DNA of 58,549 nucleotides, from positions 1 to 58,549 of the forward strand of contig JAUSEE010000031.1 in assembly GCA_030650095.1 (NCBI GenBank), read 5' to 3'. The notes beneath the pieces are model-generated. The model had not been told where the DNA came from and searched no databases. It was given only the letters and a program-made list of their open reading frames with translations. This document shows, one piece after another, positions 26,940 through 56,513 of this stretch. A program made the translations under genes and the position numbers. Source of the DNA: Candidatus Buchananbacteria bacterium. Its GTDB lineage: Bacteria > Patescibacteriota > Patescibacteriia > 2-01-FULL-39-33. The number at the start of each line of letters is the position of its first letter. Within the stretch, counting starts at the first letter, position 1.

Positions 26940-27052
26940 AAGGCCACCCGTACTGGTATGGCAATCTTTCAACTGCCCTATGACCTTTCGGACATAGGCT
27001 CACACAAGCAAAACCAGACGGAATGGCCGTCTCTGTGCTCGTGTGAGTCTTT
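26940..27052 (-). ncRNA. Candidate structured non-coding RNA
   Basis: Minus strand: TTGCTT and TATAAA with a 16-nt spacer lie directly before a compact set of hairpins. First, ACTCACACgAGCA pairs with TGCTtGTGTGAG and encloses AGACGG/CCGTCT. Second, CCTATGTCC-GAAA-GGTCATAGG. Third, a terminator-like GCCA...TGGC stem ending in CTTTTTTG. No open frame is present and the conserved pairs cover nearly all of it. No known RNA class was recognised. Plus-strand transcription with a T5 tail at 27051 cannot be excluded. Confidence 0.55.
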
Positions 27053-27053
27053 T

Positions 27054-27081
27054 TATAATCATGCCCGAAGCTAAAGCAACG
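27054..27081 (-). promoter_or_regulatory. Candidate promoter of the structured RNA
   Basis: TTGCTT about 16 nt upstream of TATAAA on the minus strand, with transcription predicted to begin at the first hairpin. The region 27082-27186 upstream holds only the GCCAGTGGGCTAACCA repeat. Confidence 0.4.
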
Positions 27082-27186
27082 AGTTTAGATTATCTACTAG
27101 ATTGTATCTGTAATCTACCAAAAAACGGCTCAAAAATCAAGCCAGTGGGCTAACCAGCTAAATAACCAATTAGCCCACAGTAACTC

Positions 27187-54821: not shown

Positions 54822-54899
54822 TATTAGTAATCAGTAAATCGTAATCCGTAATCCGTAATTTTCCATAAAATTACGAGTTACGAGTTACGAGTTACAAAT
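54822..54899. repeat. Hairpin of short tandem repeats between rplC and rplD
   Basis: (CGTAATC)n units on one side (TCGTAATCCGTAATCCGTAAT) and (GAGTTAC)n on the other (ACGAGTTACGAGTTACGAGT) are mutually complementary around TTTTCCATAAAA. A stem-loop built of three heptamers per arm. Confidence 0.8.
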
Positions 54900-54907
54900 T
54901 GTAAAGA

Positions 54908-55645
54908 TTATTTATTTTCTTCCTTAATCTCTGGTATCACGTCTTCTGCTATTTTTTCACTGGTAACTTCTGGTTCGACTTTAATTTCCGGTTCAACTTT
55001 TACTTCTGGCTTAACTTCTTTTAAAATCATTTCTCCTGGAGCGCTAATGATAAGCAAGCCGTTTCTGGCGCCTGGCACAGCTCCTTTGATGTACAATATG
55101 TTTTTTTCTTGATCAATATCGACTATAGTCAAGCCGGAAATGCTGATTTGGTCGTTGCCCATTCGGCCGGCCATTCTCATGCCCTTAAAAACCCTGGCTG
55201 GATCGGTAGCTCCGATAGAACCTGATTTTCTTAACTGATCTTTATGTCCATGAGAAGCCGGGCTGCCATGGAATCTATGCCTTTTAACCACGCCCTGATA
55301 ACCTCGTCCCTTGGATGTGCCGGTAACTTTAACCTCATCATCTTTGGCAAAAACACCCACCGTAATCTGATCGCCTCTTTTTATCTGGGCAACTTCCTTG
55401 GAATCCACTCGGAATTCCTTCATGGTTTTAACAGAAGCCAAATCCTTAAGATGTCCGGCTTGTGGTTTTTTAATATGCTTACCTACGCCAAAGCCAACTT
55501 GGACAGCGCTGTATTTATCTTTATCTTCAGTTTTTATTTGAGTCACAACATTGGGCTGGGCTAAAACGGCAGTCACAGGAACAACTCTTCCATTTTCTTG
55601 GAAGATTTGAGTCATTTCTAATTTTTTACCTAATATGAATTTCAT
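54908..55645 (-). CDS. rplC: 50S ribosomal protein L3 with C-terminal extension
   Basis: 245 residues. L3 core with RGYQGVVKRHRFHGSPASHG and HKDQLRKSGSIGATDPARVF-KGMRMAGRMG is canonical. The last 35 residues are repeats of V-K-P-E-V-K-V-E-P-E type (KPEVKVEPEIKVEPEVTSEK) and acidic, a lineage-specific tail. L3 helps form the A-site side of the peptidyl-transferase centre. Confidence 0.95.
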   Translation of the reverse strand: MKFILGKKLEMTQIFQENGRVVPVTAVLAQPNVVTQIKTEDKDKYSAVQVGFGVGKHIKKPQAGHLKDLASVKTMKEFRVDSKEVAQIKRGDQITVGVFAKDDEVKVTGTSKGRGYQGVVKRHRFHGSPASHGHKDQLRKSGSIGATDPARVFKGMRMAGRMGNDQISISGLTIVDIDQEKNILYIKGAVPGARNGLLIISAPGEMILKEVKPEVKVEPEIKVEPEVTSEKIAEDVIPEIKEENK

Positions 55646-55670
55646 TATCTTGTGATACTTTTCTATTTAA

Positions 55671-55703
55671 AATAAAAAACCTGGCTATATCCTAATATAC
55701 CAG
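55671..55703 (-). terminator. Terminator-like hairpin directly upstream of rplC
   Basis: Minus strand CTGG-TATAT-tagg-ATATA-g-CCAG followed by TTTTTTATTTT, 25-55 nt before the rplC start. Since the ribosomal transcript must pass it, it is a candidate attenuator. Confidence 0.6.
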
Positions 55704-56168
55704 ATTACAACAGAGCCCGGGCTTTTAAAAAGCCTTACTCAATTAATCTAATTTTACTAAGATATTTTTATCCTTATCAATCAAAATTACATCGATGGAG
55801 GTTTTCCCCTTTTTGCTTCTATTGAGACCATGGGAGAATATCATTCAGACTGAAATCTCCATATTCCGGTTAAATTTTTTAAAAATTTTCTTAGCTTACT
55901 ATCCAGTAGGCTGCAAAAATTATTTAATAAATTTGCCTCGGAATCTGAAAATTTCATCTCAGAAGCATATTCTCCTATGGTCTCATTGCCCGGGATCTTT
56001 TTCCATTTATGAAAATGATTGCATTTAAGAACCGAAGATAGAAGGAGAGAGAACGCTCAACTGTTCACACGCTTCGCCGTAGCGTATAGTGCAATTCGTT
56101 CAGCTGAGCCCAGGCGAGCTCTCTCTCCAAAAATAGAAAATGTTCTATCTTCGGCTCTTAATTTTAAT
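55704..56168 (-). promoter_or_regulatory. Structured rpsJ-rplC spacer (candidate attenuation leader)
   Basis: About 465 bp without a gene, in the middle of the ribosomal cluster. It holds two large stem-loops on the minus-strand RNA: 56028-56160, with AAGAgCCGAAGATAGAA / TTCTATCTTCGGtTCTT outside and GGAGAGAGAgCTC / GAGCgtTCTCTCTCC, CTCAGCTG / CAGTTGAG and CGCT / AGCG inside; and 55821-55990, with a ~48-bp imperfect inverted repeat (GAGACCATGGGAGAATAT). The terminator-like hairpin before rplC follows. Confidence 0.6.
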
Positions 56169-56513
56169 TTACATTTTAATCTCAATGTTCACACCCGCCG
56201 GAAGATTCAAATTCATCAAAGCATCAACTGTCTTGGCATCCGGATCAATGATATCCAATAATCTTTTATGGATCCTCATTTCAAACTGCTCGCGGCTGTC
56301 TTTGTGTACAAAAGTCGACCGATTGACTGTGTATTTCTTTTTTTCGGTCGGCAGTGGTACTGGACCAGCCACCTTGATGCCGTTTCTCTCACAAGTCTCA
56401 ATGATCTTTTTGGCAGAATTATCAATAACCTTATGATCATAAGCCTTGATCTTTATTCTGATCCTCTGATGAGTCTTATCTTTCTCTTTGGTTGCAATAT
56501 TTGTACTTGCCAT
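56169..56513 (-). CDS. rpsJ: 30S ribosomal protein S10
   Basis: 114 residues. Core [20 protein letters not shown] and the signature [40 protein letters not shown] are canonical. S10 is in the 30S head and is also the NusE partner of NusB in antitermination. The N-terminus is about 12 residues longer than usual. Separated from tuf by 81 nt. Confidence 0.97.

Follow-up and report, generated by a model that had tools for sequence, protein, structure and literature searches.

What the long and highly structured gap between rpsJ and rplC does is the question raised by a ribosomal protein cluster in a patescibacterial genome (1.16 Mb in 62 contigs, labelled G000), of which a stretch of 58,549 nucleotides, here called the window, was analysed. 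Among named organisms, Candidatus Buchananbacteria are the closest to this genome. On the minus strand the order is tuf, rpsJ, the spacer, rplC, rplD and then the remaining genes of the S10-type block. The initial annotation gave the spacer a length of 465 bp and regarded it as exceptional in a cluster with short gaps. Its length is 523 bp (55646-56168). The rplC-rplD and rplW-rplB gaps are indeed short, with about 10 nt across Patescibacteria, but a long rpsJ-rplC gap is common in these bacteria, the median being about 210 nt over 78 spacers (from 80 rpsJ loci of named genomes). As a whole, the spacer of the window folds with a z of -9.8 against shuffles. Short repeats of type ATTACGAGTTACGAGTTACGAG lie at 54826-54895 in the rplD-rplC gap, and TTCGTAATTCGTA-like repeats are frequent in the rpsJ-rplC spacers of other Patescibacteria.

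The spacer had been explained either as a new attenuating leader or as the insertion of a structured element. It contains both, and the large hairpins that had drawn attention are not the regulator, one being mobile (element B) and the other restricted to a genus (hairpin A). The regulator would consist of a combination not singled out earlier, namely a smaller conserved hairpin, an antiterminator and a terminator (Table 1). From the sequence comparisons it is highly probable that the spacer is a conserved cis-regulatory leader RNA attenuating transcription into the rplC-rplD-rplW-rplB... block, with a putative downstream-encoded protein as ligand (most likely L4), with element B inserted in the apical loop of helix P2 and with hairpin A as a separate element.

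Table 1. Genes and RNA features in and around the rpsJ-rplC spacer of the window, in the direction of transcription
Feature	Position	Strand	Evidence
tuf	57782-56595	minus	
rpsJ (S10), gene upstream of spacer	56169..56513	minus	
rpsJ-rplC intergenic spacer, 523 bp	55646..56168	minus	
Hairpin A, single-copy, genus-restricted, just 3′ of rpsJ	56027..56159	minus	z -7.3
Sensor hairpin P1, 5′ strand (AUGGA)	56002..56006	minus	
Internal loop, 5′ side, AAAGA (AAG core)	55996..56000	minus	conserved in alignments
P2, 5′ strand (UCCC)	55992..55995	minus	
Element B, 163-bp dispersed palindromic repeat in P2 apical loop	55823..55985	minus	z -9.0, family searches, empty sites
P2, 3′ strand (GGGA)	55805..55808	minus	
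Internal loop, 3′ side, AAAC	55801..55804	minus	conserved in alignments
P1, 3′ strand (UCCAU)	55795..55799	minus	
AGGA element	55771..55774	minus	
Predicted antiterminator strand a (AUAUCUUAGUA)	55755..55765	minus	cognate versus non-cognate test
Intrinsic terminator AAUCUGG...CCAGG-U6	55674..55706	minus	
Predicted antiterminator strand b, inside terminator loop and inner arm	55687..55697	minus	cognate versus non-cognate test
rplC (L3), first gene of the block predicted to be controlled	54908..55645	minus	

Element B corresponds to the inverted-repeat hairpin of about 170 nt that the initial annotation had placed at 55821-55990, and the hairpin is borne out by folding (-68.0 kcal/mol, better than all 200 shuffles; arms at 55823-55849 and 55959-55985). 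Relatives of the element occur elsewhere in the same genome and in distant members of the class. A covariance model built from 11 copies finds the element in 33 of 192 class genomes, and a few of these have matches by the dozen. A more exhaustive search finds three sites in the window's genome (each on both strands) and about seven in G001; G002 and G004 have none. None of the nine other family genomes has the element in its rpsJ-rplC spacer. Because the site is empty in these relatives and the repeat is spread in many copies elsewhere, element B is an inserted, mobile, palindromic repeat and not the regulator. Its core is conserved, whereas the outer arms differ in sequence from copy to copy and keep their complementarity (in nine copies, with those of the window and G001 left out, cognate arms pair at -30.5 against -12.8 kcal/mol for non-cognate ones, permutation p = 5e-5). 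G039, G019 and G148 provide examples of such a core with copy-specific complementary arms. The element resembles MITE- and REP-like palindromic repeats in being short, apparently non-coding, dispersed, palindromic, multi-copy and patchy between close relatives, and like MITEs it leaves empty sites in relatives. With its variable outer arms it seems to depart from typical MITEs, where the ends are conserved, and no clear target-site duplication is seen. In the sister genome G001 the same repeat lies directly upstream of tuf (around 1573-1716 of locus L010; G001:C10:80072-80215), in the same gene cluster as in the window and in another gap.

Hairpin A is likewise real as a structure. The hairpin of about 130 nt reported at 56028-56160 is found at 56027-56159 with -64.1 kcal/mol, again better than all 200 shuffles, and inverted-repeat arms lie at 56018-56043 and 56143-56168. 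Among 240 class genomes it is present only in G000 and its congener G002. The G002 copy is 85% identical to that of the window and is split by further inserted sequence of about 170 bases (spacer at about 2206-2400 of L011), which makes the region just 3′ of rpsJ look like a hotspot of insertion. In G004 there is a hairpin whose ends resemble those of A and whose inner part differs. Hairpin A is thus a separate, lineage-specific hairpin and not the regulator.

What is shared by the relatives is smaller. Lack of conservation among close relatives had been named as one outcome that would speak against a leader. Hairpins A and B are indeed lineage-specific, but the leader is kept in 10 of 10 family genomes (G000-G009), all of which have the same layout before rplC of a sensor hairpin, an AGGA element and a terminator with a U-run. 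The family consensus of the sensor is AUGGAG-AAAGA-UCC...GGA-AAAC-CUCCAU, in which 93% of the pairs are preserved; after sliding of the partner strand the figure is at most 61%. The AAG and AAC cores of the internal loop are conserved in alignments A1, A2 and A6, and the window's genus has an A-C mismatch at position 56001. In the eight relatives with a clean excision the sensor is the free-energy minimum. In place of element B the relatives carry short apical loops, often containing AGAAGC, a motif that also flanks B in the window. The length of the P2 apical loop varies among relatives and the sensor can therefore still form around the insertion; excised alone, the window's sensor folds with B in its apical loop. 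In the free-energy minimum of the whole spacer, GAUCCCGGGC on the P2 side pairs with GCCCGGGCUC at 55713-55722 and P1 does not form, so this predicted pairing, or B itself, may have altered the switch in the window's genome.

Downstream of the sensor the family members carry the AGGA element 17-21 nt after P1 (AGGGA in one) and then a strand a, just 3′ of it, whose pairing partner, strand b, lies in the loop of the terminator or in its inner arm. The terminator-like hairpin CTGG...CCAG-T6 noticed in the initial annotation is this terminator, which the family retains. The pairs are UAUCUUAAAAA:UUUUUAAGAUA in G002 and G004, GUUCAAAC:GUUUGAAC in G005, GUUUGUAUU:AAUACGAAC in G009 and GUUUCA:UGAAAC in G007. 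Strands a and b thus differ completely between genera and still pair, as measured by a position-restricted cognate test that was devised after the pairing had been spotted by eye (permutation p = 3e-5; 2e-4 with one genome per genus). Plain duplex energy of the whole linker with the terminator against shuffled linkers is not significant (Fisher p = 0.055). The antiterminator of Uhrbacteria-type leaders is GCCUUU:AGAGGC; it shares bases with the 5′ arm of the terminator and also covaries (permutation p = 3e-4). In some Moranbacteria the 3′ strand of P1 could itself pair with that arm. The overlap of b with the terminator suggests that antiterminator and terminator are mutually exclusive. A hairpin with a T-run precedes rplC in 54 of 59 patescibacterial loci, against 3/57 in the rplC-rplD gap, 0/29 and 0/51 in gaps further downstream and 20/60 between tuf and rpsJ. 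A separate test finds strong terminators in 53 of 78 rpsJ-rplC spacers and in 13 of 234 shuffles.

Homologous spacers were also sought more widely in related CPR, as the initial annotation had suggested, and related leader types turn up in other Patescibacteria; the covariation that it had proposed to check supports both the sensor pairs and the a:b helix. A 17-sequence alignment that leaves out the window's genus keeps 91.7% of the sensor pairs, against at most 48.6% when slid, and has 20 double-sided cells where shuffles have 6.7. With 34 sequences, 91.6% are paired and the double-sided cells number 46, against 15 in shuffles. Covariance model R1, trained on 17 hairpins without the window's genus, recovers the two held-out congeners at the right place (E = 5e-5 and 0.005). 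It matches at least 22 of 286 class genomes, a lower bound since few candidates were scored per genome and, of the window's family, the class search caught only G006. Each of these genomes has a single match, in every case between rpsJ and rplC. Moranbacteria and some Paceibacterota have a related hairpin in the same gap, CUAGUU-AAAGU...AUACUC-AACUAG, which is 95.5% paired against at most 47% when slid. A phylum-wide search with the Moranbacteria model matched one genome, which says little because about 18 candidates were scored per genome. A third sensor type, GG-AUUGA-UCC...GGA-UAUCG-CC, occurs in rpsJ-rplC spacers of Doudnabacteria and Kerfeldbacteria (L045, L054 and L087). The initial descriptor of the internal loop was too strict and gave almost no matches. 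Its relaxed version matches 14 of 77 spacers for the U type (4 of 770 shuffles) and 7 of 77 for the M type (1 of 770).

The sensor hairpin (P1, the AAAGA/AAAC loop and P2), the a:b antiterminator and the terminator containing b, as they emerge from comparison, suggest a feedback switch. When free ribosomal protein is scarce, a would pair with b and RNA polymerase would read through. In excess, a protein encoded downstream (most likely L4, else L3, L23 or L2) would bind the sensor hairpin, upon which a:b would be lost and the terminator would form, the route from sensor to a:b not being visible in the sequence. Termination would turn down rplC and the later genes and spare tuf-rpsJ. With ribosomal-protein attenuators in general this RNA shares a conserved sensor hairpin just ahead of the ribosomal protein genes and an apparently exclusive antiterminator/terminator pair, the antiterminator pairing being supported by the two permutation tests. 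L4 is favoured as the putative ligand because it controls the E. coli S10 operon by attenuation (PMC10931766). Mimicry of rRNA gives no clue to the ligand, since two 23S rRNAs, searched with models R1 and R2 as well as with the loop descriptor, contained no match to the sensor or its internal loop. The 23S rRNA match of the window's genome (L175, G000:C30:19639-23496) spans 3858 bases against 2925 model positions, so about 900 bases are inserted in it, perhaps as an intron or intervening sequence.

A simpler arrangement would have inserted repeats and an ordinary terminator at the end of the tuf-rpsJ transcript, with rplC expressed from its own promoter and no switch at all. The insertion of B and the narrow distribution of A agree with it, as does a promoter-like site, TTGATA-18-TAAAAT at 55780-55751. 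This site lies downstream of the sensor, however, and the number of such promoters is within that of shuffles (5 against an expected 3.1). The sensor hairpin of G005 and G006 begins no more than about 20 nt from the rpsJ stop, which leaves no room for a promoter after rpsJ. Transcription therefore probably reads through from upstream, and the switch would disconnect tuf-rpsJ from rplC and the genes after it. An ordinary terminator would need neither a covarying sensor hairpin nor a covarying a:b helix, and the arrangement without a switch is therefore unlikely.

Much less probable is a role of A, B and the leader as RNase sites or barriers that would make the stabilities of the tuf-rpsJ and rplC mRNAs unequal with little termination. 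Large stable hairpins could block exonucleases, but a conserved U-run terminator with a competing antiterminator across genera would be left unexplained. Slimmer still are the chances of leader-peptide attenuation, in which a short frame, ATGGAAAAAGATCC..., would be translated and the position of the ribosome would set the terminator. Several family members do have an in-frame ATG/GTG GAA/GAG AAA GAT. This reading was rejected, as neither length nor sequence of the frame is conserved, G007 has lost the ATG, Uhrbacteria-type leaders lack it, and the bases concerned covary as part of P1 (from GC to AU). Attenuation by a protein-sensing leader is the reading retained here.

No family of Rfam 15 exceeds its gathering score in the window's spacer or in the loci of 20 relatives, and at a relaxed E only spurious microRNA matches appear, far below the cut-off. 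Elsewhere in the window, 26960-27091 on the minus strand matches the LOOT RNA (RF03000, 69.7 bits), an RNA of unknown function. A literature search limited to open-licence papers, which is weak evidence, found no rplC leader, and no ribosomal leader or ribosomal-protein feedback in Patescibacteria/CPR. The nearest known system is that of E. coli, where L4 controls the S10 operon through a leader upstream of rpsJ whose intrinsic terminator acts with NusA pausing; the site of this leader is conserved only in some gamma-proteobacteria (PMC10931766). Both are structured RNAs before an S10-type block with an intrinsic terminator and would work alike. The patescibacterial RNA, however, follows rpsJ, both in the window and in all of the 22 R1 matches; its hairpin is different and is joined by an antiterminator that competes with the terminator. 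It is best read as not homologous to the E. coli leader.

The L10 leader uses a kink-turn. In B. subtilis the L10(L12)4 (rplJ) and L20 leaders switch between antiterminator and terminator (PMC10931766), as proposed here, with another gene and another sensor, and no Rfam leader family matches the patescibacterial RNA. The rpsL-leaders attenuate a ribosomal protein operon by means of a sensor that varies by lineage (PMC2965389, PMC2704228), just as the Buchananbacteria/Uhrbacteria and Moranbacteria types differ here; they precede rpsL, whereas the patescibacterial leader precedes rplC.

Most Patescibacteria are uncultured. On balance, it seems somewhat more probable than otherwise that they carry, as a group, an undescribed class of rplC leaders in which attenuation uncouples tuf-rpsJ from the L3/L4 block through lineage-specific sensors (Buchananbacteria/Uhrbacteria, Moranbacteria and Doudnabacteria types) and in which the apical loops accept mobile palindromes with the switch unbroken. 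The insertion of element B is a natural experiment in this respect, a mobile hairpin having entered a part of a regulatory RNA whose length seems unimportant. A leader RNA that occurs once per genome, in one gap, and is absent from Rfam offers a concrete and testable regulator for the largest ribosomal gene block. It suggests that the S10 operon can be attenuated by an RNA unlike that of E. coli and at another place, a so far undescribed way in which Patescibacteria may balance the parts of their ribosomes.
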